Below are positions 4,223-61,983 of a DNA stretch of 64,000 bases, in pieces. Under the pieces are notes generated by a model. That model was not told the DNA's origin and ran no database searches. It saw only the letters and a list, made by a program, of their open reading frames with translations. This stretch comes from Erythrobasidium yunnanense (Eukaryota > Basidiomycota > Cystobasidiomycetes > Erythrobasidiales > Erythrobasidiaceae). Position 1 is the first letter of the stretch, and each line of letters begins with the position of its first letter. Both the position numbers and the translations under genes were made by a program. The stretch spans positions 2,170,001 to 2,234,000 of the forward strand of contig BCJC01000004.1 in assembly GCA_001600175.1 (NCBI GenBank), read 5' to 3'.

Positions 4223-4330
4223 GCGCGTTTGGCCGAGTGGTTATGGCGCCAGTTTCAGGCGAAGTTCTCACGAACTGGCATGACAATCTACTGGTTCGAA
4301 AGAGCACAGGTTCGATCCCTGTAGCGCGCA
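4223..4330 (+). tRNA. tRNA-Leu (anticodon CAG) with intron
   Basis: A full cloverleaf can be folded by eye. The acceptor stem GCGCGTT pairs with AGCGCGC, followed by discriminator A4330. The D-arm is GCC/GGC around GAGTGGTTAT. The anticodon stem is CCAGT/ACTGG. The anticodon CAG lies at 4256-4258 with purine G4259 on its 3' side. A 29-nt intron at about 4260-4288 sits at the canonical 37/38 position. The variable arm (TTCGAAAGAGC) is long, as expected for a class II tRNA, and the T-arm is ACAGG/CCTGT around TTCGATC. The intron contains a small AGTTC/GAACT hairpin. The tRNA decodes CUG as leucine. No mature-end CCA is encoded. Confidence 0.93.
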
Positions 4331-25215: not shown

Positions 25216-27833
25216 TTACCGGAGGCGAGGATGTACGATGCCCTCAGATAGGGACTTTCCGGCCGCGATCATAGGGTAGCTGGAGAGAAGCAAATCAGCA
25301 CCGCGAACCCTACCAGACACGTAACAGCGACTTACACATGCTCATCGGTGTGCACTCTGCATTCCAGGAGGATTGGCTTCGAGTTGTCGTACTCCATGAA
25401 CCTCTTCATGGCAGCAGGCAGGTCTTCAGCCTTCTCAACTCGGAAAGCCTCGACGCCCATGGCTTGTGCGAGTGCTACAAAGTTGGGGTTCTTCATTTGA
25501 GTATGCGCATATCGCTTCTCGTAGAACAGATCTTGCCATTGAAGAACCATTCCTTGGAATTCGTTGTTCTGCAGAATTCGGTCAGTCGTTGTGTCTGCAA
25601 GGAACTCTTAATGCAAGACTCACCAGGAGAAGGATCTTGGCTCCAATGCCGTGCGTGGACGCCGTTTGCAGCTCCATGGCGGTCCTGCGGGCGAGATGAA
25701 TCAGTATACTTCCGTTTACTACGATGGTAAGGGTGATGCTCACATGGAGAAAGATGCATCACCGTCGATGTTGACGATGATCTTCTCAGGCGCAGCGACC
25801 TTGGCACCGATGGAAGCGGGTACTCCGTATCTGCAGCAGCGCTAAGTTAGTATATTGAGTAGAACAGCTAGTGCAGCAAGTTGCGCTCACCCCATGGTTC
25901 CCAGACCTCCCGATGATACCCATGATCTCGGCTTCTTCCACCTGTAGAACTGGCACGCCCACATCTGATGCTGGCCTACACCCGTAGAAATGATGATATC
26001 GTCCTTCTTCCCATTCTCCTCTGCCCAGTTATTTAGAGCCTCCACTACTTCCTGCGGTTTCGCGAACTGTCCATCTTTGCTCGGCTCATACGTGAATGGG
26101 AATCTTTCCTTCCACGAATCGAGTTTGTCGAACCATGCTTTCCGGTCTACGATAGGCTGCTCGGGGAGAAGAGGTAGGATGTGAGAGAGGTTATGTGTGA
26201 CATCGCCTTCAATGGCACATGTAGCTTCGACGACTTTGTTGATGTTCTTGGGCGATATCTCGAAGTGGATGATACCGCCTCGGCCTTCTTCAGCTGCTTT
26301 CTTCGCTTCAGGTGCAAAGGCATCGATCTTGCCCGTTACTCGATCATCGAAGCGCGCTCCGAGAGCAATGATAAGATCTGCATCTTGCATCGCCAAATTC
26401 GCGTATGAAGAACCGTGCATGCCTAGCATGTGCAATGCTCGAGGATTGTCCTCGTCGAATACGCCGAGACCTTGCATAGTAGTCGTAACGGGAATGTTGC
26501 CCTTCTCGCTGAGCTCGGCTAGGAGCTTGTCGCCATTTTCGCCATTAAGGAGACCAGCTCCTGCATAGATGATGGGCCGCTTGGCATGGCTGATGAGGCG
26601 TGCTGCACGCTCGAGGAGCTGCATGTCTGGCTCCGGGTAAGCCGCAGGCTCAGCCATCGGAGCTGGTGCGCTCGAGGCGGTTGAGGGTGTCCGGCGGACT
26701 CCGATAGTTCGGAGATGCTCTTCTACTCGTCCAGGATGCGTGAAGCGCGCTGGAATAGCTTGTTTTAAAATACCGGCTGTGATGTCCTTCGGCAGATCCA
26801 CAAGAACTGGACCAGGTCGACCTGATGTAGCGATCTTGAAAGCTTCGTTGATTCTCCTTGGTAATTCCGCAATATCTTTGACCATCACATTCCACTTTGT
26901 GCATGCCCTACTGATTCCTACTACGTCTGCTTCCTGGAACGCATCGGATCCAATAGCGCTCGTTGCTACTTGTCCACAGAAGACGACGAGGGGTGTTCCA
27001 TCGGAGTATGCATCTTGCATAGGTGTGATGACGTTCGTTGCGCCTGGACCTGAAGTGACGAGAACGACACCGGGCTTCCCGCTTACTCGAGCATATCCTT
27101 CTGCCATGTGCCCTGCACCTTGTTCGTGACGCGGTAGAACAAATTCGAAGTGTTTCGAGTTGTAGATGGCGTCAAAAACGGGTAGAATAGCTCCTCCAGG
27201 GTAGCCGAACTGCAGAAGGACAAGAAGCGGAAAGTCAGCTCGCACAGCTCAAGAACTGAAGAGCCGGGAGTGAAGTACGCACAACATGCTTGACATTATG
27301 TCTCAGCATCATCTCGTGGAAGATCTGCCCTCCACTCATTCCTACAAAGCTGTAGTCGAGCTCTTCTTGCGGGGGCGGCTGCACGCCCTTCGAAATACCA
27401 TGAGGATAGTGAGCATGCGCTGGGAAAGATGTGGAAGGAGGAGGTGTCTGGAAGCTTGCCGCTGGTACGGGCCGTCTACATTCGCGAGTTCCGGGAAATT
27501 TCGCATGGCATTGGAAGCATAGAATCAGCTCGGCTGACCATCACAGAGATAGATAGATTCAACGTACGCTGAATCTACTTGCGCTCTAGGTGCGCCCGTC
27601 CCCGCTAGACCTCTCTGAGCTTGACGGACTTCTGAGATTTTCGCGCGGTCAGCTTGGAGAGCTCTGATTCTCCTCTTGACATCTGCTGGGATGTTGGCTG
27701 CATTCGCTGAGGATGAGGTCGACTGGCCTCTCCGTTGTCCTGCTTGAAAGACGGCTCTTGTAGCGATAGTCGCATGACTTGTCGAGGTGATGAATGCTCG
27801 CTGAGAAGTCGAGCTCAAGGCGCGTGAGGCCAT
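25216..27833 (-). CDS. ILV2: acetolactate synthase catalytic subunit (mitochondrial)
   Basis: ThDP-dependent enzyme making acetolactate/acetohydroxybutyrate, the first common step of branched-chain amino-acid synthesis. Seven exons: 27833-27568, 27475-27283, 27209-25891, 25830-25744, 25684-25624, 25568-25336 and 25279-25216. Visible landmarks are the ThDP glutamate in [26 protein letters not shown], the FAD-region segments of the middle domain ([26 protein letters not shown]), and the ThDP/Mg motif IDGDASFSM followed by [12 protein letters not shown]. The C-terminus EGIVHPRL is family-like. The N-terminus from 27833 is Ser/Ala/Arg/Thr-rich and fits a mitochondrial presequence; an in-frame Met at 27920 is less likely. 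The regulatory subunit ILV6 is not in the window. Confidence 0.96.
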
Positions 27834-30859: not shown

Positions 30860-31231
30860 ATGGAGACCAACAACTCCAAACGCATAATTACGGCTGGTGG
30901 CCACACGTGCAACAAATCAGCTCCAGTTACTGCATCCGTCAAGTGCTCCCTCTGCAAAAAGGTCAAAGACTGCTGCCTTTACACTCGGCTGTCGAATTCA
31001 GTCTACGTGCCGCTCTACGTGTAAGCAATCTAATACACTTCTGCACGTGCTGGCGCTCATACAGTCGCCTCATCGCATGGTTCTAGGTGCGTTTCATGCG
31101 CTACTGTCAATGGCTATCTCAACCAGTCTGGCGCTAGCACCGATGAAGACCATGAAAACTGGAAAAGGCAGAACCCGAATACTAAACGCGATTACGTCGC
31201 ATACGTTCCGTCTAGGGGCGGACGCTTCTAG
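30860..31231 (+). CDS. GATA-like zinc-finger miniprotein, copy 1
   Basis: Not a described family as far as I can tell. Two exons (30860-31020, 31087-31231) with a 66-nt GT-AG intron give 101 residues. Exon 1 ends with the first cysteine pair KCSLCKKVKDCCLYTR; exon 2 opens with the second pair CVSCA. The arrangement C-x2-C-x22-C-x2-C and the intron just before the third Cys match the other copies in this array. The layout resembles the GATA finger but with a slightly longer loop and no CG after the second pair. The tail after the finger is polar, mixed acidic/basic (STDEDHENWKRQ) and unique to this copy. No other domain, signal peptide or membrane segment is visible. Function is unknown; DNA binding or interference with GATA factors is only inference. 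Confidence 0.6.
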
Positions 31232-31850
31232 TATTCAAGCCAGCAGCAATGGGTGACTGGGGGCGGACTCACAGGATTGTCATCCAGTTTAAGGTCTCTC
31301 GCCCATACAGTGGTTGCCTTGTCCTCCTCTCGTATCCTCAGCAGTTCAACTCCAGCAATGTGTCCACCACCTGCATTCCTCTGCTTCCAAAACACTACAC
31401 AGCTTCAATCTTGGCTGTATCCCTTACCTCCTCCTTTTTTGAATCTCGTGTTTCGAGTGCATTGGCCAGATTACCGTTCCTGCTGATGTCGCCTCCTCGA
31501 GAAGGCAGTACCTACTCAGACTCGCTTGCCTTGTCTCGCATTACACCGTCCCATGCTATGCTAATTCGACGCGTGGTCGCCTGTGGCGGCTTTGCCGCTT
31601 AGGTTCGGCCGATGGTATGTATCTGCATACAGATGTCTCAACGCTGACGTTGACGCAGTTGTCTGTGGACTGACTCAATGCCCCTTCATGATCTCCTTTT
31701 CTTCCTTGTCAGCTTGTATGGCGGACAAGCTAGGGGTCCCGCTGGCAGGTGCGTCGATCACATAGCCTCATTGACATTCGCTAATCTATAGCAACATGCT
31801 CCAGCAATGCTCTGCTCGACCTCGGACAAGCGGAGTGCACGGGAGGGCTC
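31232..31850. other. spacer inside the zinc-finger island
   Basis: No supported gene. A well-formed intron signature (donor CAG|GTGCGT near 31748, acceptor CTATAG near 31793) hints at a transcript running into the relic copy downstream, but the flanking frames match nothing I know. Confidence 0.3.
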
Positions 31851-32110
31851 ATGGAGAGAGCGATCGACAAGGTCGAGAGGGATTTGCAGTACGATCAGAA
31901 GGCGATTCGCTGCAAGCGCAGCTCTGCCTGCATTTACACACGCGGATGGGCCAGTCCTGCAATCTACACCACACATAAGTCGACCTCGCAGCACATCCCC
32001 CACATTCTTAGCGCGATCTGTGTGGGTATAAAGTGCGCTGCATGTGCCGCAACAACACAAGAAGACGGCCGTACTGGAGCTCATTTGTGCTACGTTATCA
32101 TGCTGTCGCT
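31851..32110 (+). pseudogene. relic of a GATA-like miniprotein gene
   Basis: Resembles copy 1 at protein and DNA level. RCKRSSACIYTRGWASPAIY aligns with the copy 1 stretch CKKVKDCCLYTR and its continuation, and KCAACAATT aligns with the second cysteine pair, with DNA just around that pair closely matching copy 1. The first cysteine of the first pair is missing. Where the family has its donor, this copy reads ATAAGT at 31975 instead of GTAAG, and the expected acceptor position lacks a good AG. If about 59 nt were spliced there, the distance between pairs would be 20-21 residues, as in the family. Best read as a decayed copy; a divergent unspliced gene starting at 31851 is the alternative. Confidence 0.35.
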
Positions 32111-32349
32111 CCTGCCCGTAATTTCGGCGCTCCCGTTCAGACATCCACTCTCAACCTCCATTCTATTCTCCCAAGGGATAGGCTTCCTTCCGCTTTCGTC
32201 AGCTTATAAGACAACCCCTTCAAAGCATGAACAGACGCCAGACCTTTTACGCAAAGCTAGACTGGCCAGATCTTTTGATGCGCTGACCGACGGCTAGCCA
32301 CAAGCTTTTGGACTGCGCTGCATCAATGCGGATGCTGTACGAAGCCATA

Positions 32350-32357
32350 GCTACAAA
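32350..32357 (+). promoter_or_regulatory. GCTACAAA motif upstream of copy 2
   Basis: The exact octamer GCTACAAA lies 95 bp before the copy 2 ATG; a pyrimidine-rich stretch follows. The same octamer precedes copies 3 and 4 at similar distances, so it may be a TATA-like core element. Confidence 0.45.
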
Positions 32358-32444
32358 AGCCAGGCCCTCTTCGTTATTCGTCTCTCATCTCTTCAGACTC
32401 GATATCAAGCGCTCAAAAGACCAACAGTTAAGGAGGATCAAACC

Positions 32445-32760
32445 ATGCCTAGAGATAACAACACCTTGATGGCCCCTGCATGGCTCAAGACAGTCATGAT
32501 ACAGGGCCAATTCTGGAACGCGCCGGCACGCAGATCTCAGATGGAGACCCGCAAAGTACTAGCGCAATGCTCGTACTGTCCTCGATACGAAGGCTGCATG
32601 CCTTACGAATGTCGAGGCCAGTTGATCCATGTGTGAGCTACTGCCCTCAGACTTCCAGCCTTTTCTCGTGGACTTGACCGCCTGCTGATGCATACATGCT
32701 AGCTGCGAGACGTGCGGAAGTCTGAGCGGCTTCAAAGAGATGGTCAAGAGGTCCTTCTGA
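32445..32760 (+). CDS. GATA-like zinc-finger miniprotein, copy 2
   Basis: Two exons (32445-32632, 32703-32760) with a 70-nt intron give 81 residues. The finger is QCSYC ... RGQLIHV | CETCGSLSGF, that is C-x2-C-x18-C-x2-C-G, with the phase-2 intron directly before the third Cys. An RGQL segment 3-6 residues before the intron is shared with copy 3, and CG plus an aromatic after the second pair recall the GATA consensus CNACGLY. The N-terminal 40 residues are unique (MPRDNNTLM start) and moderately basic. The gene ends soon after the finger (EMVKRSF). A GCTACAAA motif lies 95 bp upstream of the ATG. No stop or splice defect is seen. Confidence 0.62.
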
Positions 32761-33639
32761 TCGTCCTCCAGATTGTCCTCCAGACAGATCACCGTCTACC
32801 TGCCCTCAAAAAGATGCTATCAAACGAGCGACGTTCTCCGTCTCTTTCTTCAGTGTACTCTGTAGCTATCGTATTTCACGTTAGCCTGATCTGACAACCC
32901 TGTCTCCTCCGAAAAGCCAAGAAGACCCTTAAATCGTATGCGGTTGGAATTGGCCCGCCTATCCTTCCAAGATCTTCCGTTGTTCCTGTGTACTTCTCTT
33001 CAAAGGGAATTCTGCCATAGTGAGTGTGATTCTGCCGCATTGGAGTCACGCTGAACGACCTTACAGTAAGATCAGACAACCTATGCGCGTCTGGGCGAGG
33101 TGCACACAACCTACACTCTGTGGCTCGAGGGAGGCGATCTCTCATTGGAAACCTAGCAGATACCAATATGAGCAAGAATGAAATCGCTGCCGCAGATCTG
33201 GCTCTTTGCATGCGCCAGTATTTGCACGCACTCCTGCCATTGTGGTCACGGTGGATCGTTGTTGGTGCTGGTTCATTGCTGGCTGTTCCTTGTACTTGGC
33301 AAGGCTCCTTCCCCGTAACTCCGAAACACTTTCTACGAATTGACCTTTCTATCGCAGCCAGGATAGGCTTTCAGCCGCACTCTGAACGGCAAGTTCGAAG
33401 GCCTTTGTCAGCTGGCTCGAGTCCACCTTCAGCGGGGATTTATCGATGGCTCCCTTGGAACGAAGTACCTTTATGCCGGCTCGAAGGATGCTGTCAGCGC
33501 TGCTGCCTCCGGCATCGCTACAAAGACGGCAGAAAAGCATCATGATTCTGCTCCTCTCTCTTCTCTTTCCATCATAATATGCAGCGCTCGTCGGAAAAGC
33601 ACCTGGCCTTCAACCATACAAACAATACGTTCGGAAACC
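32761..33639. other. spacer inside the island
   Basis: Open frames on both strands (for example 33120-33545 plus, 32876-33211 minus) have no recognisable domain. Their 3' parts overlap what looks like the promoter of copy 3, including GCTACAAA at 33517 and a CT-rich tract (33548-33572). No gene is called. Confidence 0.3.
33517..33524 (+). promoter_or_regulatory. GCTACAAA motif upstream of copy 3
   Basis: Same octamer, 123 bp before the copy 3 ATG and followed by a CT-rich tract ending near 33575. Confidence 0.45.
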
Positions 33640-33948
33640 ATGCCTTCCCAAAGCCGTACGCCGTCTCCTGTCTATGCCTGAAAGGGCAGTGTCCGATACG
33701 ATGGACATGATTATCGTAAGACCAATGACCCAAAGGACGAGCAAAAATGCTCTATCTGCAAAAACCACCCGCGAATGCGTCTTTTACAGCTACCGGGGCC
33801 AGTTGGCATTGGCTGTGTAAGCGCTAATCCTTTACAGGCTCGTAGTACTGTACTGGACGCCTGCTAATTGTGCTCTGTTCGCTTTGGACACTACAGCTGC
33901 AAGACTTGCGGGAACCTATACGGTTTCCGATACGTAGTGAGCGCTTAG
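33640..33948 (+). pseudogene. GATA-like zinc-finger miniprotein, copy 3 (disrupted)
   Basis: Clear family member: KCSICKTTREC...YSYRGQLALAV | CKTCGNLYGF, giving C-x2-C-x19-C-x2-C-G. This copy looks most like a true GATA finger (TT after the first pair, CG-LY after the second). The intron is in the same phase and place (donor GTAAGC at 33815, exon 2 starting 33897, stop 33946-33948). From the family-like ATG at 33640 (MPSQSRTPSP) the frame meets TGA at 33679-33681, and a one-base shift is needed between the first cysteine pair and the third Cys, at or near A-runs at 33743-33747 or 33760-33764. An ATG at 33674 gives an open frame but loses the first pair. It is either a young pseudogene or partly a consensus error. 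Confidence 0.55.
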
Positions 33949-34309
33949 TAGATCGCTAGCTCTCCCAAGTCTGCTACTATCATCCGAACCAAAATGCTCT
34001 TGACTGAGTGACCTTTCTGTCCTGCTGTTCTTGATGACGCTTTGTACCCAGCGCCTTCTTCCGTAATCTGACTTGACAATCCTCCATCCGCCTTATGGAA
34101 CAGAGCGAGACAGACTGTCTCTAGAAGGACAGAAAAGGGATCCGTCCGAGTCCCTTCTACATTCCCTTGTTCCACTCTGACTTTTTGCAGCTGCGACACC
34201 AGCACCTCTGCCATGCTGCTCGCTCCTCGCCTATCATAGTTCTGCCCAACCACACTCATTCACTCACACATATACTCGCTGAGCGAGCTCGACAAGTCAA
34301 TTACACACG
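33949..34309. other. spacer inside the island
   Basis: No recognisable gene. The stretch next to 34310 is rich in CACA/CATA repeats (about 34250-34275) suited to a 5' leader. Confidence 0.3.
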
Positions 34310-34519
34310 ATGCTGGTCCGATCACGACGCCTCAGCGTAATCAGCAGACCTTCAAGTCGTTCCTCGTCAAGACGCTCCTCTTCAGCTTCCGTATCAGTCA
34401 TCGACGATCTCTTTGGTCACGAATGGACACCTCTGCGCAGCTACGATCCCACTCGCGAGACCTTGAAGATGCAGAAAGTAAGTTCCCCTTGTACACGATC
34501 CGGTCGAATAGCGGTTTGA
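34310..34519 (+). CDS. uncertain Arg/Ser-rich short ORF
   Basis: An open frame starting MLVRSRRLSVISRPSSRSS, strongly Arg/Ser-rich for 30 residues, then SVIDDLFGHEWTPLRSYDP. A good donor (AAA|GTAAGT at about 34477) falls inside it, but I could not find a convincing second exon. Composition differs from the zinc-finger copies, so it is not one of them. It could be the first exon of a small gene or chance. Confidence 0.25.
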   Translation: MLVRSRRLSVISRPSSRSSSRRSSSASVSVIDDLFGHEWTPLRSYDPTRETLKMQKVSSPCTRSGRIAV

Positions 34520-34949
34520 TGTAAAGGCGTAGTGCGACACTATCCATAACGAAGCTGTGGAGAGATGCGATATGGTGACGAGCTCTTCGATAAATCTGCA
34601 AGGCGCTGAGCGCTTAATGAAAAAAATTAATCTGGACTCGAGATGGGAGGGGTTCGCTGTCTGGCTCCTGTTCGGGGAAGATAGCGGGCTAGTGTATGCG
34701 TACATCATAGATTGAATGCAACGCATACCGGACTCTCCAGCCTGCGCACTAAGCCGCGACACTAAACACGCATACCGATAGTCTTGCGACGCTATCCGGT
34801 AACAGAGTGCTGCATGTTTGTATGATGGCGTGCAGGGCAGACTTGCTATGAAGCAAGCGTCAGCGTCAGCTTGGTTCCAGGTTGTCTCACTCCCATCTCG
34901 GTGCCCATAAGCTTCAAAAGTCAAATAGAGCTGATCAGCACCTATATTG

Positions 34950-35324
34950 ATGGATACCAGCAAGCGCAAATGCCTGCATGGCTGTCCGAGTGCACCTCAT
35001 GAAGTGATCTCTCGAAAACGCCGCGTTCCACCTCGACGTCTCGATGGCTGCAGCTGTTACACGCTACGAAGATGCCCTGTCTGGGATTGCTTTGAGTCTG
35101 CATCCGACGCCTGCGGCCGTTCGGATGCGGACGACTTCAGCACCTTATCCAGATTCTTTCGGATCTATCCTCCAATGCGGCTCATTCGCCGTTCCAGCCT
35201 CTCTAGGTCGTTGCAGCGACGTGCACGTCTCTGTATGATGGTCGGAAGGAGAGCCCAATCAGTACACACTCAGTCTCGCGGCACTTTTGCAGTCACCTCA
35301 TCAAACAGCTGCAAACAACGTTAG
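34950..35324 (+). CDS. uncertain Cys/Arg-rich ORF
   Basis: A 124-codon open frame beginning MDTSKRKCLHGC, with ten cysteines in the first 60 residues region and several Arg-rich runs. It lies on the same strand and inside the zinc-finger array, but its cysteine spacing does not match the family (no C-x2-C pair split by an intron). No homology is recognised and no promoter motif was seen. It may be a diverged neighbour or chance. Confidence 0.22.
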   Translation: MDTSKRKCLHGCPSAPHEVISRKRRVPPRRLDGCSCYTLRRCPVWDCFESASDACGRSDADDFSTLSRFFRIYPPMRLIRRSSLSRSLQRRARLCMMVGRRAQSVHTQSRGTFAVTSSNSCKQR

Positions 35325-35509
35325 TACTGCAGCAATTTAGCACAACTTACGTTCAATGTCTGAACTTCCCACATTCGCTCACTCCTTTCAGTGACACTAC
35401 TCTGATTTACACAAGCTCACACCCTGAGGTTCCCATATTCTCTGGCTCTGTCAAACGACGACCCTTTGTGCCCATGAGTAAATGCGGGTTGCGCTGCTCC
35501 GGAGCGGGG

Positions 35510-35517
35510 GCTACAAA
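35510..35517 (+). promoter_or_regulatory. GCTACAAA motif upstream of copy 4
   Basis: Same octamer, 121 bp before the copy 4 ATG, followed by a TCTCTCTTTCTTTC-type tract. Copy 1 also carries the octamer (30839) but only 21 bp before its ATG. Confidence 0.45.
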
Positions 35518-35630
35518 GTCGAGCGCCTCCGTTAGCGGCGTCTCTCTCTTTCTTTCTATCTTTAAGCCACTCTGCTGCAAGACTTCAACTCAGAGCCCGG
35601 ACCAATCAATAAACGAGTACATCAGCAAAA

Positions 35631-35911
35631 ATGCCTAGCAACTTGGTAGAAAAGTGGCTAGATTACATCACATACCAAGATCAGGAGTACGAGTCCCAGG
35701 GTACTGGCACGGTCAGGCGAAAGTGTTCAATCTGCTGCAACACTAGAGACTGCCACTGGATTTCCCATGGATCTCGCTCAATATACCTGTAGGTTTTTGG
35801 CTTGTACCAGCACTATGGCTTGCTGCTGGCTGAGGACGTTGACCACTTTGGCGATTTAGCTGCAGGCCTTGTGGTATAACGAGAGGCGCCATAGGTACCT
35901 ATTACGCGTAG
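35631..35911 (+). CDS. GATA-like zinc-finger miniprotein, copy 4
   Basis: Two exons (35631-35788, 35860-35911) with a 71-nt intron give 69 residues, the smallest copy. Finger: KCSICCNTRDCHW ... SIYL | CRPCGITRG, that is C-x2-C-x18-C-x2-C-G. A Trp falls eight residues after the second Cys, the same place as the Trp in the GATA motif TPLW. The intron again splits the codon before the third Cys in phase 2. The N-terminus (MPSNLVEKWLDY) shares the MPS start with copy 3. A GCTACAAA element is 121 bp upstream and a CT-rich tract follows it. No disruption is seen. Function is unknown. Confidence 0.62.
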
Positions 35912-37884: not shown

Positions 37885-40057
37885 TTAAGTGAACTTGATG
37901 GAGTCTGCCATCGAAAAGTACAATTTTTGGTCAGCGGATCCTCCTAAGCATTCGTAAACGCAAGGAAACGACTCACGGCTCTCCATAGAGATCTCTCCAC
38001 CTTTGTACGAACCGCGCTTAAATTTGTTTTTTCCCTTGCGAAAAGAATCTCCACGGGTGACGATAAGGTCTTGTGCGGCTTTATAACCATAGTCCCGCCC
38101 ATGTGCACCCTGTTTTCCGAGGAAAGAGTTATCCTTCAGCCTCTCGTCCACTTGATGTTCCTCTATCTTGACTCTCCTGAATGGCACATTCTGCCCTCCT
38201 CCTCCTAGGCGTTTACTTCTAGCAGGATTCATGTTACTCATCGTATTGGGCGTCGAGGTTCCCGAAGCCGACGCCGAAGTAGATGTAGAAGCAGATGGTT
38301 GGATAGTCATTTCTGAATGCGAGACTTGGACAGAAGCAGCTTCTGATGCTGGGATCTGGACGGTCGTAGTTGCTTTAGTGAGCGTGTGCGAGAGATCCAA
38401 CTTCGCCTTCTTCGATGGAGGAGCGGATGGGACGATGGGTTTCTTCTCTTCTTCCTCCTCACTGTCCGAGGAGGAGGAGGAGGAGGAAGAACTGCTTGAG
38501 GAGGAATCGGAAGATGAAGATTCGGGCTGTTTTCGTTTAGCGCCATTGATGGAAGATGTGCTGTTCTCGACTTTGGCGACTCCATTACTGAGTGCAGTTC
38601 CGACTTTGTTGGCAGTAGCTGATAGACCGGCAGGAAGAATCGCTTTGTTATCCTCTTCATCATCCGAGCTGGAACTATCTGATGATGAAGAATCGCTTGA
38701 TGAGTCTTCTCTCTTGCTCACTGATGTTGGTGGGAGCGCCTTCGTGACAGCTGATGCAGCTTTGGCAGCAGCTTGCTTGACAGGCGCTTTCTTGTCATCC
38801 TCCTCCTCATCACTGCTGTCCTCCTCGCTGCTGGATGAATCACTCGATGACTCCTCTTTCGCTTTCTTCGTCTCCTTCTTCACCTCCTTCTTATTTTCAT
38901 CCTCGTCCTCATCGCTCGACGACTCGTCTTCTGAAGAGTCCGAGGAGCCCCCAGTAGCTTGCACGACAGCATGTGCAATACTATTTATTCCTGCTCCTAC
39001 TGCCGAAGCGGCGCTCTCCGCTAGACCCGCAAGGACGCCTTTCTTTTCCTCCTTCTTCTCTTCTTCTCCTTCATCATCATCACTACTATCGTCTGATGAG
39101 TCTGAAGATGACGATGATTCGGAAGCCTTCTTCACCTCCTTCACGGCTTTACCAGCAACTTCTTTTGTAGTTTTCACTGCCTTCTTCGTAGAGTCTACAG
39201 CTGCTTCTTTGCTAGGTGCGTTCTTCTTTGCCTTCTCCACTGCTTTCTTCGCTGTCTCCTTCACTTGTGCAGCTGGTTTTGTAGCTTCTTCCTCGGAGGA
39301 ACTGCTATCGTCGCTACTGCTGCTATCGCTGTCCGAGCTGGAGGATTCTTGCGCTTTCGCAGCGATTGCTTTAGCGGCGTCCTTAACCGCAGACGTAGCT
39401 GAAGTAGCTTTTGCCGCAATATCTTTCGTTCCCTTCTTCACAGCAGGAACAGCCTCCTCTTCTTCGGAAGACGACGAGTCTGAGTCATCCGAACTTGAAG
39501 CAGCTGTGCCGTTCGTTTGTACTGCTGTGGACTTAGTGTCCTCTTGCGCAGTATCGGAAGATGAGTCGGAGTCGGAATCTGACGAGCTTTCTTCAGTGGG
39601 TTTGGAAGTGCTAGCAGCGGGCGCAGTAGGTGGAGGAACAGCAGAGTACTTCTTGGCTGCAACACAAATTAGTGAATGTATCCTTGATACAGCTGCGAAC
39701 GCGTTCTACCTGGTGCAGCTTTTTTGTCATCTTCGTCAGAGTCGCTGGAATTACTCGACTCGTCATGTGCTTCTTCATCATCCGAGCTTGATTCCATTTC
39801 TACATCTTGTTTCGCATCAGCGCCCTTTGTCGAGGCACTGCGAACGCTCATCAGTGAAATCTTGATTTGACGAAAGATGATGGTTCGCACTCTGCTTGTA
39901 CGATCTCCAACAGTTTGTGACTGCCTTTACTGTTCTTTCTTGATGCTAGATTGTATTCTGCTGGAGCTTCTTTGAGTAGTGCAGCTGCTGTCTTTTTGCA
40001 TGATTCTGCAATGAGGAAATCGTGGATGTGGATAAAGGTGTCTGATGACATAAGCAT
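37885..40057 (-). CDS. SRP40: nucleolar phosphoprotein SRP40/NOLC1 (Nopp140)
   Basis: Nucleolar chaperone of snoRNPs. Four exons (40057-39891, 39837-39710, 39656-37977, 37904-37885). The N-terminus has a LisH-like segment (IHDFLIAESCKKTAAALLKE). The middle is the typical array of acidic Ser/Asp/Glu clusters alternating with Lys/Ala/Pro-rich basic blocks, at least ten of them, the sites of heavy CK2 phosphorylation in homologues. The C-terminus carries the conserved SRP40 domain: PFRRVKIEEHQVDERLKDNS, GHGR-like HGRDYGYKAAQDL, GDSFRKGKNKFKRGSYKGG and, after a final intron, MESHSIKF. The last 20-nt coding exon is supported by this exact ending. The start may be 40057 or 40051. It is divergent from MED16 with only about 80 bp between starts. 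Confidence 0.93.
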
Positions 40058-43827: not shown

Positions 43828-46800
43828 ATGTCCACTGTCTCTCCCTTGCTTTCAGTACCGCGCAAGACGACAGGCGACGTCGACTATGCTCCCGCAATCC
43901 GACAGATCATCACCCAGACGTACGGCGAGAGCGCAGAGCGGTACAGCGAGGAGATCGCAAGCTTGAATCGAGCACGGCAGGACGCCGTCCGAGGAAGTGC
44001 TGGCTCAGATGCGACGGCTAGAGACCTGCTCTATCGGTACTTTGGCCAGCTCGAGCTGCTCGAGCTCCGGTTCCCTGACATCAGGGTACCTTTTCCCTGG
44101 AACGACGCATTCGCACCTTCAAAGAGCATATCCCAACTATCTCTCGCATACGAGAAAGCATCTGTCATCTTCAATATAGCGGCGACGTTGTCGGCATTGG
44201 CGGCTGCGCAGAACAGGTCATCGCCTGAAGGTCTCAAGAGATCATTCAATTTCTACCGCCAAGCAGCGGGAATGTTCACTTATATCAATGATAACTTCCT
44301 ACATGCCCCATCGACCGATCTTGGCAGGGATCTAGTCAAGGTCCTCATTACACTCATGACGGGTCAAGCGACAGAAGTGTTCTTGGAAAGAATGAATGAG
44401 GAGAAGAGAAGTCCGGGACTCAAGAGCAAGATATGCGCTCAAGTAGCTGCCGTCTATGCGGGAGTACAGGAAGAGGTGAAGGAGCAAGTTGGAAAAGGTA
44501 TCTTTGACAGGTCTTGGCTTGTTCTGGTGCAGGTCAGCAGACATCCCTTTACACTTGAGGGCGCAGCTGAATGTCGGGTGTCCAGGTCAAAGCAAAGTTC
44601 TTCGCTTCACTCGCACAATATAACAAATCGCTTGCCGATACTACATCCTCGAAACATGGAGACGCGCTGGGCCGCCTGAACTTAGCGGAGAATATTGCAA
44701 AAGAAGCTCGACAACTATCATTCACCTATGCGCCTTCTTACTATGGTCCGTCAACCGCTAGCCAAACCTTACCTGCGGATGCTGGAAACATGCTTCAAGA
44801 GCTATGCAACAATCACCTTACGCTAGTCACGGAAGCTCGGACAGCAGCTATAAAAGACAACGACTTGGTCTACCATGCCTTGGTCCCATCAGAAGCCGCT
44901 CTGCCCCAAATCGAGAAGTCAGCCAACGTAGCAGAACCTATTCCGATACAAGAGATCTACGCTTCGCCAGACGTTCAAAAGCTAGTAGGACAAGATATCT
45001 TCATCAAGCTCGTGCCGCTTTCAGTCATCGAGAGCTCTTCAATGTATTCCGAAGAGAAAGCCAAGATCCTGAGAACGGAGGGCGAGAGATGCGATATTGC
45101 AGATGGAGAATTGACGGCGGGCCTGGATCATCTTTCTCTGCCGGGCAGCTTGGCGAAGTTCCGCTCGGGCGCAGAACAGGATACGTCTATCATGGCTGAT
45201 CCCGGCAGCCAAGTGCTGAGCTGGGCCTCTGAGATTCAGAGTAGTGAGACAGATAAGAGAGTGGAGAGTGCTATTGGCGAGCTGTCGCAATTACGGGATA
45301 GGGCGAGTGCAGATCTGGAATGGGCAAGCAATGCGCTTGATAGCGAACAAAGAGAATGCGAACAAGCGCGAGTCCGCTTCGACTACCATTTCGAACAGTC
45401 TCCCTCTGGCTCCCATACACGGAATTGGAGGCACGACATCAAGAATGATAGAGAAGCACTGACTCAGGCAAGAGCTTCGGATGATCAGGTGCTCTCGCTT
45501 TGGGGCGTCGTGCGAGAGGATGTGGGACTCTTGGCTGCTGGAAGAGATGTGATTGAAGGTGTCTTCGCCGATGCTATCGCTCGCGCATCGCAGGGCGAAG
45601 GTAGCAATGGGCAGAACCTGCTGGACTTCGATCTTCCAAATGACGAGGGACAGGAGCTGGCACAAAGGATAAGCAGCATACAAGAGTCGTTAAGCAAGCT
45701 TCAGAAGCTGAAGAAAGAGCGGGCGGACGTGCTTGCGGATCTGAAGGAACGGATTCACAATGACGATATATCGCAACTCCTGATCCTCAACAGAAAGTCT
45801 CAGAATGTAGAACCTACCTTGTTCGCTGCCGAGCTCGAGAAGTTCAGACCGCATCAGGCCCGTCTTCAAGCTACGATACAAGCACAAGAACATACGATGG
45901 CTTCTATCAATGCTGAATATACCAAGCTTGTCTCGGGAAAAAAGGGAAAGGAGATCCAGAACAAATACGCAAAGTCGGAAAGAGTGAAGAAGGACCTCAC
46001 AGCAAGGTTCAAGCGGGCATACGAAGCCTACAGGGAAAGCCGATCAGGTGTCACGTAAGCTACATGCGCTTCTCTCGCAGTTCAAGATACATATTGACCA
46101 TGCTTATATATGCAGTAAAGGCATTGCGTTCTACCAGGAGCTTTCTGGACTTCTTATAACTTTGCGCCAAGAAGTATCGCAATTTGTGTCAAGCCGCGCA
46201 TCGGAGCGTTCTTCAATGATATCGTCTGCTGAGATGAAACAAAGGCTGGCGGGAGGAGGGCAGAAAGGAGGCTCAGCTTCAGCTTATTCGGGTGACGGGC
46301 TAGACAAAGCGTTCGATTCGATGAGCTTCTCTTCCTCCGCCAGATCATCCACAACACCAATCTCACCCACAAGGCCGCCAGGTCAATCTGCTTCGAGTGC
46401 ATATTCTGGTTACTCCGGCCAACAACCATCATATACGTCTCCGCCTCCGCGGCCTCAATCTACCTACTCTTCCTACTCGAACACTTCTTCCGCCTATCTA
46501 CCTCCCTCAAATCCATCTCTACCTCCGAAACCATCTCCTCAAGGCTCGTACGGTGGTCAGCCATCTGGCTCTTATCGCCAGGCATTAGGTTCTGGCCTCC
46601 CACCACCTCCGTCTCAACCTCAATATGCACAATATAACAGCCAAGGGCCATCTATCCCTCCGCCTCCTACCGCAATGAGCTATTCCTCTACATCATCGTA
46701 CAACACAGCTCCTCCTGCTCCATCTTCGTATCCTAGCCCAGCACCTTCACAACAAAGTTATAGTACTGCACCACCTCCTTCTTCCTATAGCTCACCTCCA

Positions 46801-54594: not shown

Positions 54595-55969
54595 TCACAA
54601 TCTCGAGGCATCTAGAAAGGAGCATGGCCGGACGGCAATGTCTAGCTTCTTGCACACATCGTCTAATACGCTTGCTCTTTCCCTAAGTCGTCTTACTTGA
54701 CGAAAGCAATCCTGTGGGCACGCCCTTCGTTCTGTCACGTGGAACATGCACCTAGTCTCAGAGGAAGGGAGAGCACGATCCAAGATGATAGTGATGCTCT
54801 GCAAGCGCGATGTCTTCGAGATCCAGTTCCTGCGGACATGAAACATATCCCCCAAGCCAGAAATTGCAGCGACCGAAAAAGCGATATGCAGCTTGGTGAG
54901 CTGATCTGGCAGATTCTGTAAAAGTCGCGTGATTACGCCTGCGACCAGTCCATTTGTCCCTTTGCTTGCCACTATTTTGAGGCTTTCCAGCAGCACGAAA
55001 TGTCGAAGATTGACGAGTGGGGTATCCGAAAATGTCCGACCTTCGGATTCAGAATCGTGTATGTCCAGCTGTAACTCCTTCACGTAGGAGCTAAATTGAT
55101 TGAGAGCGGCGATAAGATGTTACTCAATAGCAAGTAGCGATAAAGAAAGGCGCTTGCACGTAAAGATGGACTGCACGGCCATAATGGACCTCGTCGCTTT
55201 AGCGTCGGGAAGCCCTAGACTGAGGCTCTTTTCGAATAGAGGGGAGGCCAATTGAAGAGCGGCAGCGGTTGACACGTAATCGTCGCCATATACCATGCCC
55301 AGGTCAATGTCCCCTAGAGCAGTATTGTGAGGGTTGCTTGTCTTATCGCTGCCATGTGGTAGAATCGTCATCAATTGCGTCAACGTCTTGATGGGAGCGC
55401 TGTTAACTCCTCCGTAGGATATCGTTTGCAGCTTCTGCAGAGATAGTACAGCGTCGCGCAGCGCGAGTGTCTGCTCTGACCAGTTCTTCTCACGTCTAGG
55501 ATAGCCAACGACGAACTTCACTGTTCGTATACCTTTACATGCCAGTATGATTTCGGAGACCATAGCCAGGTTCTCTTCCGGGCCGAGACGATGCGAGAAC
55601 CAAGGAATAGTGAGGCTCTGTAGAGAATTGTACCAGATGGGAGAACGAGAGATGATGTATGTGAGGGTGTTGCAAGCCGGATGTGGTATGTATCGTGTGG
55701 AGACTAGCCTATCGACATCGACTGCAGCAAATAGATGTCTGCGTGTTGCGGAGTAGATCTTGCGTGAGATGAGACACATAGCAGAGAGAGTTGCTTTGTC
55801 ATCGGTCAGACAAGCAGCTATAGCTGACCAGGCCTCTTCGCGTAGGCTTGAAGCGATGGACTTCCGCTGGTAAGGATCCGGCGCGTCAGACGAGACACTC
55901 CACTTTCATCAGCCTCAGAACAGTCTGTCTCACCTCCTCGATACTTGGAATGCTCTGCGCATGGGCCAT
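54595..55969 (-). pseudogene. F-box-like tandem paralogue 1 (one in-frame stop)
   Basis: Member of the tandem family. Exon 1 (55969-55934, MAHAQSIPSIEE) joins over a GT-AG intron to RKSIASSLREEAWSAIAACL, a degenerate F-box-like helix set, followed by the hallmark CLISRKIYSATRRHLFAAVDV. The body is LRR-like (SLQSLTIPWFSHRLG, ILACKGIRTVKFVVGYP). A TAA at 55120-55122 lies in a single continuous frame between SLSLLAIE and the next conserved segment YVKELQLD. The protein would otherwise run to the family C-terminus LDDVCKKLDIAVRPCSF at 54595. It is either a pseudogene or a gene truncated at 55120. Known F-box proteins select substrates for SCF ubiquitin ligases; this family's target is unknown. 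Confidence 0.6.
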
Positions 55970-56205
55970 TGCGTACGTGCAGATCCGGGTTGAGGACAGA
56001 TGGAGATAGGGAAGCAGGAAAGAGGAAAGCAGAGGGGACAAGAGGAACATAAGCGAGGTGTAAATTCTGTGTTAGACGGCGGGCTATCGAGGATTGCCGA
56101 AAGACCGTTAGTCGTGTTCGTCCCACGGCTTGACCGCCGCCGCCCACGGGTTGTTTTCCAAGTGTAATACAAAGAGGCTTCCGTTTCCACCTAGACGCAG
56201 TACAT

Positions 56206-57436
56206 CTACGAGCTCAACGCATGTACAAACGAACATGGACGAACCGCGATACTCAGAGCCAGACAAGAGTCGTCCAATTTCTGTGCTTTTGCCTTCAATT
56301 GTGCTATCTTGTCGATGCACTTCGAGCTACATGGCTGTGCTTGCGTCTCCGATGATCTGTTTATCTCGTGCATCTCATGTCGGGTCAGACAAGCTTGAGT
56401 GGGAATATGGATTATATGCAGCAGCGACTGTTGGTCGGCTACTTTGGTGCGAAGAAGATGGCCATCCAGCGCATCAAGAATTCCAGATGAAAGATAGGGA
56501 ATATCCAAGATTTCCAGCTGGTTGGGCAGACTGCTGATGAGCTGCTCGCTCGCTGATAGATCGCCATTCGGCGGGGTTTCAAGCTCTTCAAGGCCTGTAA
56601 TTCGCTGATGTCGATTGTGCCAACATCATCCTCGATGCGGATGTTGAGCTCCAGCGTCTCCATCCTGTTGCCCAAGAGTTGAAGGGCGGATGTGATACGA
56701 CCTGCCGTAGATTTGGCAGTAATAGACATATTCTGACATGTAAAAGGAGCCCTCACGATTAACATGCCATGGATGGGTAGTGGCCTTGGGAGCGTCAGAA
56801 CTAGTTTTTGCGGAGAGAGTTGTAGAGGATCGAGTAGATCCCAGTGATTTGGAGCTGGCGGCGGTGGCGTGCCAACATCCTCAACGGCGAAGTCCACTTC
56901 TCCCAGCTAAACCTCTATGTGTATAGCCGTTTCGTTGCTGCCACGCGGGAGTGCCTTGATCGTTCGAACGAATAGCCACATAGGACATGAGCTTGTCCTA
57001 GTATATGACATCTTACGAATATGTAGAAGAGACAACAAGGTGTTCCGTAGCACCGATGTGTGACTGCGCCAGTCTTCTGTGTATTCATGTCCAATGACTA
57101 GCTCGACTTCCGTAATACTAGGGCCAGCAAGCAAGATTTGGATAATAAGGTCGAAGTGTCTGTCGCGTCCAAGGGAAGCAGACAGCCATGGTATAGTCGC
57201 GGAGCGTAGATGCTCAGACCACGTTGACTGGCGGTGCGAAAAGGAGTAGATCAGAGCCTTGAATTTGAGATCTCTCTGATACGATAGCGCTTGAACCACG
57301 TCTATGGATGCTAACAGGAAGCTATGCGTTGCTGCATAGATCTTGCGAGAGAGGAGACATGTGCTGTATAGACTGGATTTGTTCTCGGCGAGGTGAGCGG
57401 CAACCATCTGTCAGACTTCAGGAGGCAGTCGCTCAG
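56206..57436 (-). pseudogene. F-box-like tandem paralogue 2 (several lesions)
   Basis: Homologous over its length. An acceptor at about 57437 opens ERLPPEV, but the F-box tryptophan codon is TGA (57411-57413). It continues as MVAAHLAENKSSLYSTCLLS and RKIYAATHSFLLASIDV. A TAG at 56907-56909 separates NETAIHIEV from LGEVDF. A frame change near 56,580 precedes the rest, which ends in the family signature KLDDSCLALSIAVRPCSF. With two nonsense codons and at least one shift, this copy is dead as a full-length protein. An ATG at 57407 could still yield a 166-residue fragment. Confidence 0.65.
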
Positions 57437-57621
57437 CTGCAGACATTGTCTGGAATGCCAGAGCTTGTCAGAAAGCCATGTCGCTTGGGCTGCAGACCAG
57501 GGATAGACCTACCGTCTCTGCAGATCAATTCACCTGCAGGTCAGCTGAAGATACAACAGCGACATGCTTGAGGAACATCACTTTCTGCAGACAGTTCGCC
57601 TTCAATCTAGCTATAACGCGC

Positions 57622-57897
57622 TCATACACCCAGCGCATCCTGGAAAGAGTTCGGCCGTAGTGCAATTCCAAGCAACTCGCATAGATCGTCTAAGCCTTGT
57701 ACTCTATCTCTCACCACTTCCTTCTCCGCAGAACAAGTCAAATCGCATGGAATTCTCTGATACCCAAGCGCTTCGGCCTGAGCGTGTCTGCAGTGCTCCG
57801 CAAGACCAGCCCGAGCTGGAATGTAGAGCGTCTTCAAACACGTCTTCTCAGTCAGCCAATGATGCCGAGACAGCATCGACTCGAGCGAGCTAAGCAT
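57622..57897 (-). pseudogene. F-box-like family C-terminal fragment
   Basis: Only the end of a paralogue is left, finishing with GLDDLCELLGIALRPNSFQ, the family's C-terminal signature. No F-box part is present upstream; a long poly-T tract begins about 75 bp away instead. Probably a deletion product of the array. Confidence 0.55.
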
Positions 57898-57970
57898 CCG
57901 AGCTATGAGATGGGGAGTTTCCAGTTAGTCTCGATCTGCCTTAAAACTACTAGCCAGTCTGTGTTGGGCT

Positions 57971-57991
57971 TTTTTTTTTTTTTTTAATTTT

Positions 57992-58088
<97 letters not shown>
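57971..58088 (+). repeat. 118-nt poly(T) tract (poly(A) on the minus strand)
   Basis: An almost pure T run with two AA interruptions at 57986-57987 and 57992-57993. It lies between the 3' end of F-box-like paralogue 3 and the C-terminal fragment. On the minus strand it is a poly(A) tract about 95 nt after the paralogue 3 stop codon. It may be a slippage-prone microsatellite, an inserted mRNA tail, or an assembly join. Confidence 0.9.
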
Positions 58089-58181
58089 CAAATTCTTGAG
58101 AGTCTTGCATGCGCTTATGTCTTCCTTTCTTCCTCCTCGCTAACAGACCCGCAACAGCCCGTCAAGCTCGCCGCCGATCCC

Positions 58182-59526
58182 TCACGCAGCTAGCGCATCG
58201 CGGAAGGAGTACGAACGTACCGCAATACCGACCTCCTCGCACATGCTGTCCAACATACTAGCCTTTCCCTGCACCACCAAGATCACCTGTGCGCATCGAG
58301 CCCCAAAGTCTGGCTCAGACAGCTCTCCTCGATCTGACTTCTTCACCGAGAAGACACTGTTTGTTAATGACATGAGAGATTGAGGAGGAATTCGAATTGT
58401 ACGTATTTTAGTGGTCTGTACGCCTGTCTGGACACGAAACAGGTAATCCTCAAGGAAGTCGGCCAGCTCAGCCGAGAAGTATGGAAGATCAAGGGTCTCC
58501 AGACTTTCCGGCAGTGAATATAGGAGCTGCGCGATTGCATGCCATTCCAAACTTGGCGAGATCTTCAGTGATTGTAATCTTTTGAATTGCCTGGTGTTTA
58601 GGCGCTCCTGTGTTGCGCTGGAGACGATAGCCAGATCTAGCTGAAGATGCACTACCTTGTCGACAAGCTGGTCTAACACAGCATTTGCTCTGTCTGGTAG
58701 GCAAGCCATAGAAAGCGATAGGCTCTCGCACGTGAAGAGAGCCGCAACGGCGAGGATCGTAGCAACTGCAGGAAATGGAGGGACTCCTACGATAACTTGG
58801 TCTGCCGAGTAGAGGTACGTCCGCGGTTCCAGCTCGATCAATGATTGATGAACATCCTCGTGCGATCTCAGCAGGCCCAGGTCTACTTTGCCTAGCCTGC
58901 TGCCCTTATTGCCGTCTATACAGAAGTCTCTACCGCACGACAGCGTATCCATTGTCCGAATGAACGTCAGGAAAGGGCATTCTTTCGACCGCGTGTACGA
59001 GAGTTTCGCCAAACTTGGCATTGCAGTCAAAGTATCGCGGAGCGTAGCTGTAGCAGATGTCCAGTCGTGCTTGGGGGGATAGTCCATCAACAGCTCCACG
59101 CTAGAAAGCCTATGACAAGCAGCGCTGATCTTCAGAAAGACATCCGATGCTGTTTGAGGAGCCAGATGAGATGTCAACCACGGTAAGGTGACTGATCTGA
59201 GGTTGTCTGCCCAAAGCGAGTGATGCAGCATGGTAAATGCTAGCTTCGAGACCGCTTGAGATTTCCGCTTTTGCAGTACTTTGCGGATGTCGACTGAGGC
59301 GTAGAGGTGGGACTGTGTAGCTGCATGGATCTTGTGAGAGAGAAGGCTCATGTTGTAGAGACTGTCCTTGTCATCGCTTAAGCAAGCAACAACGTCCGAC
59401 CATGTCCCAAAGGGAAGCCGGTCTGCCGCGCTCTTCGTCTGCGATCATGGGCATCAGCGACCATCGTCAATGAATCAGGAAGCGGCTCACTAGGACAGGC
59501 ACTTCCATAGTCCTAAAGCTCGGCAT
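58182..59526 (-). CDS. F-box-like/LRR-like protein, tandem paralogue 3 (intact)
   Basis: The only uninterrupted member. Exon 1 (59526-59491, MPSFRTMEVPVL) and exon 2 (59438-58182) give 430 residues. The F-box-like N-terminus is KSAADRLPFGTWSDVVACL, then SDDKDSLYNMSLLS and HKIHAATQSHLYASVDI. The body has repeated short hydrophobic strands (LRSVTLPWLTSHL, LSSVELLMDYP, FKRLQSLKISPSL, PESLETLDLPYFSAEL) suggesting an LRR-like solenoid. It ends MLDSMCEEVGIAVRSYSF. This fits an SCF substrate-recognition subunit, but I see no named orthologue. The short first exon and intron position are shared by the other copies, showing duplication at DNA level. Confidence 0.75.
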
Positions 59527-59780
59527 AATCGTGGGATTGCAGCAAGTGGTAGGAGGACAAGGGGAGGAATGCGAGGTAGAGCGGGCGTGTGGGAGAGGAG
59601 AGAAAGAGAGGAAGTGAAGAACGAGGCGAAGCAGACTGTGCCGAGGTGCTCATCGTTGGCGTGACAAGCCGTCGAACGCGAAAATCTTCTGCGTTCGACT
59701 GCTCGACCGTCGGGATCTTCGATCAGCTTTGGCTCCGATAGACATGTGAACAACGACTAGCTCTCGTATCTGACGTGCTA

Positions 59781-61199
59781 TTATACTCCGGCAGCATCCT
59801 GGAAGGAACACGGGCGTACCGTGATGCCTAGCTCCCTGCACATCTTGTCTAGCCCCTGAGTCAGCTCCCTCACTCCCGGTCTCCAGCCCCAAGTGGGATG
59901 TGTGCATGACCCTGTCGATCTCTGTACAAGTCGGCAACAGCTTCGACAGATGACTCCTAGTGAAGGACCAGACAGAGGAGGTATGTGAATGGTATGTAGT
60001 GACGACTTCTCTTGTTTCGATGTGATCTTCCGCAGTACTTCCTCTAGGATTTCGATCATTGCAGTGTCGAGATAAGGTATATGTACGGTCTCCAGTTTGC
60101 GCGGTAAGTCACGCAAGATCTGCGTTTGTAGCTCCTGGGACACCCTCTCCATCATCTTCAGACTCTTCAAGCCTGATAAACATTGCATGTCTACTTGCGA
60201 AAGCGAGTCCTCCTCTGATGGCTCGTTTGATGAGGAATTTGTTGCTCCAAAGGTCAGGACACGATCCTCAGCTGTAGCTAGCTCCAGATGCACGACGTGC
60301 TCAGCTAGGTGTTGGAACACGGCATTGAATGAATCGATACTACCCAGTAAGCGCAGGCTTATGCTCTCGCATGTGAACAGAGAGGTAAGCAATTGTATGT
60401 GCCGCAGTGTGCAGCGCGCGGAGGAGATGAGTTGCTGGGGCTGGCGGTGGGGTTTTCCAGAGCACAGGTACACTAGAGCCTGCATATGGTGCTCTTCCGT
60501 GTTCAGGTTGTGCAATTGGACCTTGCGCATTCTGATTCCACTTCACAGACCCTGTCCGTCTTCTCCCTGACATACAGCATCAATCGCCTGGATGAATATG
60601 TCAGGTCGAAAGCCCTTTTGCACGAATGATATTCAGTCTAAGTGGGGCATAGATAACAGAGCGCTTCGCAGCGCCGAAGTCTTGGCATCCCACGACTCCC
60701 AAGCATCTGCATGTCCTATCATTAATCCCACTTCCGAAACGAATCTGCAAGTATCCGCAATCTTCTGAAAGAGTGCCAGTGCCGCCTGGGGCTCGAAGCC
60801 GTGATACAGCCACGGAAATGTGATTGCTGCCAAATTGTGTGACCAGAGAGTGGTAGCGGAGATGACCTTCACCACGTCAACAATGCTTGGACGCGTGGGG
60901 CCGAGGGCTCTCCGTTGGCCGGCGCAGAGGAGCGTTTTCTCGAAGTCGTAAGAGGCATAAAGATGAACGAGACTTGACAGATACAGCGTTCGAGATGTCA
61001 GACACATCTGGCACAAGGCGCGTTTGTCTCTGCTTAAGTGAGCAGCGATGATTGACCAGATCTCAGGCGGTAAGATATGAACAGCGGACTTCTTGGCCTG
61101 CAGCATGAATGAACGTCAGTACTCACGCTCTCCGGTATTGGCCGATACAGTCAAACGCACCTCAACCTCCCTTGGGACCGGGTGTCTCTTTGTCATCAT
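59781..61199 (-). pseudogene. F-box-like tandem paralogue 4 (two in-frame stops)
   Basis: Exon 1 (61199-61161, MMTKRHPVPREVE) and exon 2 from 61097 (AKKSAVHILPPEIWSIIAAH) give the cleanest F-box-like motif of the array. It then reads LYLSSLVHLYASYDF, an LRR-like body and the end GLDKMCRELGITVRPCSF. The reading frame is continuous, but two TGA codons interrupt it at 60633-60635 and 60543-60545, on either side of a segment that aligns with the intact copy (QKGFRPDIFIQAIDAV). It is either a pseudogene or an early-truncated protein of about 170 residues. Confidence 0.62.
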
Positions 61200-61299
61200 G
61201 CTTGTCGTGACTGCAATCTTTGCTTTTTCTTAAGTCTGTTTCTCTTGTTCTGAGACTGTAAATGATGAGTTGAAAGAGAGGAAATGAGCGAAAGACTTG

Positions 61300-61690
61300 T
61301 CCGTCAAATCACCACGTGCGAGAGATGGCGAGTGAACCAGTTGAGCGGAGCGACGAAGGAAACGACCGCTGAGATTTCGTCATGGAACTTGTTTCAGAGA
61401 GAAACGGAGCTGCTCCAGATTTCCGCAGCCTTCCTTCTCTTCCTTCGAAGGTCGATTTCGCAGCTGACGAAGCGGGAAGCAGCGGGAGTCGGCGGAACTG
61501 CCGCTAAAGTAGTCGAATTCATATCAATCCTCCGAAAGTTCTGCGCGAGTCTCAAAACCCCAGCTAGGAAGAGCCAGACCACGGCACCGCGACGACGGCT
61601 CTAATCGTGATCTAAAAGCTGACGCCCACTTGTTTCGAACATCCCTTCAAGCTACCCTGACTGCCGTACCATGCCGTTCAGCCGTTTCTC
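61300..61690 (-). pseudogene. decayed 3' fragment of the USE1-like SNARE gene plus its flank
   Basis: This segment resembles the region at 63545-63905, which contains the 3' end of the USE1-like gene and the spacer next to F-box paralogue 5. Shared words include GATGGCGAGT, CCAGTTGAGCGGAGCG, TTTCGTCAT, TATCGTGA-type and CCCTTCAA. On the minus strand the SNARE reading frame is lost. It sits just upstream of F-box paralogue 4, exactly as the intact SNARE gene sits upstream of paralogue 5, so the duplicated unit included both. Confidence 0.5.
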
Positions 61691-61983
61691 AATTTCTCCA
61701 CTGCATTCTATATGGGTGCTCAAGAGGTAGTGGAGGGTGAGATGATATGGGAAGGAAAGGGAGTACATCGAAAAGGAAGAGAAGTAGAGGTAGTGGGAAG
61801 GGAGGCAAAGTAGGATGCGCCAACTTTTGTTGTGAGGAGCCTTGTTGGCGTGAAGACTCGTTGAATGAGGAAGTCTTCTGCCCTTGACTCGTTCGGAGGC
61901 GAGATGCCCGACTCAATATGCGAGACTACTAGACGTACACTATTTCTTCATATCTGGTTAAGCATATTAAACCGCTTCCTCCC

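Follow-up and report, generated by a model that had tools for sequence, protein, structure and literature searches.

Gene models of the array

The window analysed here is a stretch of 64 kb from Erythrobasidium yunnanense (contig BCJC01000004.1, here C4, 2292558 bases; window at bases 2170001-2234000), whose genome assembly has 20.9 Mb in 10 contigs. Positions 30860..35911 of the window hold an array of very small genes predicted to encode proteins with paired cysteine knuckles. All four copies are on the plus strand; three are intact and lie less than 5 kb apart, and one is broken. The sequence supports copies 1, 2 and 4 as a tandem family on one strand whose introns agree in site and phase and whose ends have strongly diverged.

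Copy 1 (30860..31231) has an intact two-exon reading of 101 amino acids with CSLC-x22-CVSC and an inner cysteine. Its exons (30860-31020 and 31087-31231) flank a phase 2 intron of 66 nt (31021-31086, GTAAGC..TTCTAG). Copy 2 (32445..32760) likewise reads intact through two exons (32445-32632 and 32703-32760) and a phase 2 intron of 70 nt (32633-32702, GTGAGC..TGCTAG), giving 81 amino acids with CSYC-x18-CETC and the inner cysteine. The intact reading of copy 4 (35631..35911) joins exons 35631-35788 and 35860-35911 across a phase 2 intron of 71 nt (35789-35859, GTAGGT..ATTTAG). It gives 69 amino acids with CSIC-x18-CRPC, again with an inner cysteine. The cysteine pairs are thus 22, 18 and 18 residues apart. 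All three introns end directly before the codon of the third cysteine, with the acceptor context AG|[CG]TGC.

The intact copies share the frame C-x2-C-x5-C-x(11-15)-C-x2-C-x4-G. The fifth, inner cysteine, six residues past the second, is kept in all of them and had not been listed in the initial annotation. After the last cysteine, copy 2 ends with GSLSGFKEMVKRSF and copy 4 with GITRGAIGTYYA; the tail of copy 1 is longer and has scattered lysine and arginine residues. The choice of predicted introns is not unique, as other formally open GT..AG options exist for copies 1, 2 and 4. In copy 4, a second acceptor (35865) follows 6 nt after the first (35859); the first keeps the third cysteine, and use of the second would delete it.

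Copy 3 (33640..33948) is a probable pseudogene. The frame from the ATG at 33640 stops at an in-frame TGA (33679-33681), and the finger changes frame between its CSIC piece (33748) and the C-x2-Y piece after it. These two lesions suggest a pseudogene; an assembly error may be an alternative cause. A donor-like GTAAGC at 33817 and an acceptor-like CTACAG ending at 33896 are 80 nt apart, and an exon-2-like piece CKTCGNLYGF begins at 33898. When profiles of copies 1, 2 and 4 were run on the six-frame translations of the window and of 20 fetched genome stretches, the exon-2 piece came out at rank 4 of 9895 and the exon-1 pieces at ranks 5 and 14 of 10439. Searched as DNA against the genome, the copy 3 region matched only itself.

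The initial annotation had described four same-strand genes of 69-101 residues, essentially the finger alone, with two C-x2-C pairs, a phase 2 intron before the third cysteine and almost completely different termini. This description stands for copies 1, 2 and 4 in gene structure, intron and size, and the strong divergence of the N- and C-termini was confirmed. It does not hold for copy 3, which cannot be read as one frame. The threonine pair reported after the first cysteine pair of copy 3 is absent from any single frame of the sequence: the CSIC and C-x2-Y pieces had been joined silently. The reported CG after the last cysteine is present in copies 2 and 4, and the exon-2 piece of copy 3 has it too.

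Kinship among the copies

Profile comparisons show that the copies are related. With each intact copy left out of the profile in turn, 0, 18 and 0 of 2000 cysteine-fixed permutations reached the scores of copies 1, 2 and 4, which indicates kinship beyond the cysteines. A tblastn search of the window pairs copy 1 with copy 4 (37% over 27 residues, E 0.003). Between units, blastn gave no DNA similarity at E 1 or less, although the cysteines, intron site and phase are kept. In each of the three pairs of intact copies, codon positions 1 and 2 agree slightly more often than position 3 (18, 17, 14; 18, 18, 12; 17, 14, 13 of 36 codons, the four extra codons of copy 1 being left out).

The architecture was also compared with chance. 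Both strands of the 64 kb were scanned for CxxC, 10-30 open residues, a donor, 45-130 nt, an acceptor and CxxC. Exactly three matches were obtained, namely copies 1, 2 and 4, all in phase 2 and on one strand. In 100 sequences of an order-2 Markov control, each equal to one 64 kb strand, the mean was 0.17 for any phase and 0.10 for phase 2, with a maximum of 2. The expectation on both strands is about 0.34 versus three seen. Among the 20 other genome stretches (198,558 bases, one stretch beginning with N), the scan gave three unrelated places; one of them is in phase 2 and has a RING-like context by eye.

Further members were sought in the whole genome with two hand-made consensus queries. They matched the array alone, one copies 1 and 2 and the other copies 4 and 1. 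A fifth copy suspected by eye at 31851-32040 (CKRSSACIYTRG...KCAACAAT) was rejected, as it ranks 2519 of 10439 for exon 1 and 2615 of 9895 for exon 2. The exon-1 profile gave 9-12 bits at further places (L018, L017, L014, L011 and L023); the four viewed, all but L023, were judged by eye to be chance matches.

A search of about 5.8 billion proteins, queried with the spliced proteins of the three copies and with the exon-1 frames, found no homologue. This search needs shared words of five residues, so fast-evolving relatives could be missed. The three spliced proteins had no match in curated Pfam or NCBIfam. A scan of IMG/VR with the copies gave 134 stretches that fit a pattern, none of which encodes a relative. 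The match of copy 4 to HAT_PRP39_C (E 0.0068) was discarded, since its 16.9 bits are below the Pfam cut-off of 33 bits. The best PHROG, 12762 (function not known), matches residues 26-59 of copy 1 at E 0.021, and the best NCBIfam entry, TIGR03012, has E 0.14; each matches one copy of three. The best two rows of a PDB sequence search belong to PRDM9 (E 0.00059 and 0.0013). They reflect a Y-V-C-x2-C-G piece repeated in C2H2 arrays, with no single stretch passing, and were rejected. Among the papers listed in literature searches, titles and the first lines of abstracts name no array of this kind, which is not proof of absence.

Several observations weigh against a lineage-restricted gene family. 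The codon usage of the first exons ranks 155, 42 and 101 of 233 and is indistinguishable from that of other small open reading frames. Codon usage is thus uninformative, and the case for coding comes down to the shared motif and the intron. Among the members, copy 2 is the weakest, and the three sequences were aligned in part by eye. Both consensus queries missed copy 3; one also missed copy 4 and the other copy 2. Genome searches with single copies return only themselves. With such moderate sensitivity of the genome searches, distant paralogues could escape.

Comparison with known zinc proteins

The initial annotation had regarded the copies as GATA-like fingers, possibly microProteins that target true GATA regulators. 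Degenerate GATA fingers that have lost their DNA-contact residues would fit this idea. Published GATA fingers have the form CX2CX17-20CX2C and a highly basic region after the finger (PMC5693882). The x18 of copies 2 and 4 is within this range, both copies share the CG after the last cysteine with the GATA zinc finger (PF00320), as does the exon-2 piece of copy 3, and copy 4 has a tryptophan at the GATA place. Copy 1 with x22 is outside the range and copy 3 is broken. By direct reading, copies 2 and 4 lack the basic region. Unlike GATA fingers, the array proteins have no WRR or LCNACG core, and their extra cysteine sits where the GATA fingers of this genome mostly have proline.

None of the nine places in the genome that match the Pfam GATA profile lies in the window, and hmmscan of the three spliced proteins, run with the HMMER filters on, listed no GATA. 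A GATA profile was built from seven fingers of this genome. Copies 1, 2 and 4 obtain 5.6, 1.5 and -1.9 bits from it. Of 2000 permutations with fixed cysteines, 64, 323 and 1512 do as well, which puts copies 2 and 4 in the permutation range and copy 1 (3%) marginally above it. The seven true GATA fingers, left out in turn, score 29.7 to 62.1 bits, and none of the 2000 permutations reached any of them. In the reverse search, the family profile gives the GATA fingers 0.3 to 5.4 bits. One finger (L004) was reached by 28 of 2000 permutations and the other six by 205 to 1301. By hhalign, family and GATA pair in 10 columns, out of register, with 18% probability. The intron is also located elsewhere: none of the eight GATA genes examined, of the nine matching places, has an intron before the third cysteine, and their frame continues through it.

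Copy 1, and L004 in the reverse search, may lean marginally to GATA; the rest do not. The tryptophan-bearing copy 4 scores worst against GATA, and its tryptophan does not rescue the kinship. On these sequence comparisons, a GATA kinship of the array is not supported. The microProtein role has no sequence basis either. MicroProteins, as described in PMC7584889, PMC5381583 and PMC4807768, are also small single-domain proteins. A microProtein should be related in sequence to a larger multidomain protein, but the two consensus queries of moderate sensitivity found no such relative of the array proteins in the 20.9 Mb genome. We consider degenerate GATA fingers acting as microProteins an unlikely explanation. 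Elsewhere in the genome, two GATA matches on contig C7 (527078 and 527994) are less than 1 kb apart on one strand and possibly belong to one two-finger GATA gene.

The array could also belong to another known treble-clef family that has diverged too far for Pfam. One example is the N-terminal zinc domain of ClpX (PF06689), with C-x2-C-x18-C-x2-C and S-[VI]-Y-[IVL]-C. Among the 11 PDB sequences matched by the three-copy profile at E 10 or less, four are ClpX zinc domains (E 0.044 to 0.78), and the alignments span the whole cysteine frame. Shared features are CSxC-x18-C-x2-C and Y-[IVL] before the third cysteine. However, the permutation test is weak, with 294, 206 and 81 of 2000 permutations reaching the score, and PF06689 finds nothing in the genome up to E 10. 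None of the three ClpX pieces shown has the inner cysteine, and the array proteins are free-standing, with no ATPase part. Such a distant membership seems quite improbable. By description, the array proteins also resemble HVO_0758 of Haloferax, a very small protein with two cysteine knuckles proposed to hold a zinc ion (PMC10716476). That protein is archaeal and carries two C(P)XCG motifs, and we claim no kinship in sequence.

Genomic setting and proposed biology

The array is located between a thiamine pyrophosphate (TPP) enzyme gene (25887-27107), which we take to be an acetolactate synthase, and an SRP40-like gene (37885-38310). Ten neighbouring frames were scanned with Pfam and eight matched, among them the TPP enzyme, two chitin synthase pieces, the SRP40-like frame, an HSF/response-regulator protein and an ATP synthase piece. 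The best named relatives of a BRO1-like frame (44571-46055) are from Rhodosporidiobolus azoricus (47%), Pseudohyphozyma bogoriensis (47%) and Puccinia striiformis (44%), all genera of Pucciniomycotina. The same frame matches a metagenome protein at 94%, which shows that near relatives exist, and others at 60-69%. 

A promoter-like word, GCTACAAA[AG], is located at 32350..32358 on the plus strand, 95 nt upstream of the ATG of copy 2. It recurs at 33517 (-123, copy 3), 35510 (-121, copy 4) and, out of register, at 30839 (-21, copy 1). The window has six such places on the plus strand, four of them at the array, and one on the minus strand. The word was picked after looking and is therefore a hint only. 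At the gathering threshold, RNA families gave nothing in the array and one tRNA in the window (4223-4330). Two tandem repeats between 28 and 37 kb are short and minor.

Other features of the window and the assembly were noted in passing. On the minus strand at 55120-62859, a row of frames looks paralogous by eye, with similar N-termini that recall F-box/leucine-rich repeat proteins; the two frames of this row that were scanned had no Pfam match. A long Ser/Glu-rich open frame at 38231-39865 on the plus strand overlaps with its start the minus-strand SRP40-like frame. It is probably spurious, a reminder that long open reading frames can mislead here. Seven of the 13 contig ends viewed carry a telomere-like repeat, (T)TTACAGAGGG, in place of the usual TTAGGG, at both ends of C1, C3 and C4 and at the left end of C7; one other end is N. 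At the left end of C1 (L019:1-92), the unit has 11 nt and 8.5 copies with 98% matches. Among the literature matches listed for this word, none concerned telomeres by title.

The array is probably a tandem family, restricted to one lineage and one locus, whose very small genes have two exons, code for cysteine-knuckle proteins and have gone through duplication, divergence and loss. A decaying locus is a further explanation, in which the copies are relics of a once larger orphan family, with little or no function left in any of them. In its favour, copy 3 carries two lesions, the copies are very highly diverged and the acceptors of copy 4 are ambiguous. Against this, frame, cysteines and splice sites have been kept in three copies although no DNA similarity remains among the units. 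This suggests selection, past or present, and we regard general decay as unlikely. It is very unlikely that the copies are no genes but chance cysteine motifs beside chance splice-like sites: codon usage is uninformative, only three examples are intact and the scan hits unrelated places elsewhere, but all three scan matches of the window fall in 5 kb on one strand, share phase, acceptor context and extra cysteine, are kin in the leave-one-out profiles and led independently to copy 3.

In the lineage-restricted family, each intact gene would produce a short variable N-terminus and one pair of cysteine knuckles. A treble-clef-like fold of the cysteine frame around a single zinc ion would be most likely. 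By eye, with no predictor run, the copies show no N-terminus resembling a signal peptide. The proteins may hence act inside the cell, and the secreted effectors considered in the initial annotation are unlikely. As copies 2 and 4 have no basic DNA-contact tail and a GATA signature is missing, the likeliest mode would be a protein-binding zinc module, with its own partner surface in each copy. The family would evolve by duplication, strong divergence outside the cysteine frame and loss, as in copy 3. From the sequence we infer transcription and splicing of the copies, zinc binding and partners, and also a young age of the family.

By direct reading, the donor in phase 2 gives an immediate in-frame stop in unspliced RNA. 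An unspliced transcript would thus code for half a finger, and splicing would be needed for the zinc site. A further possibility is that the copies form a self-contained family of miniature five-cysteine zinc modules at this one locus, unlike the catalogued fingers, in which each copy becomes a lineage-specific regulator of larger proteins, be they GATA factors or not, with splicing as a switch between half and whole finger. This is doubtful. Phase 2 donors of the GTAA, GTGA and GTAG type make the stop automatic, so by itself it is no sign of regulation.

Overall, the array is a real if modest curiosity, an orphan tandem family that was wrongly tied to GATA. It is a warning that four cysteines spaced nearly as in GATA do not count as evidence for a GATA factor. 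Small genes that have an intron but no homologues easily escape annotation. A tandem set that has retained its cysteine frame and intron, but not its DNA similarity, lends itself well to studying the origin, divergence and death of orphan families.

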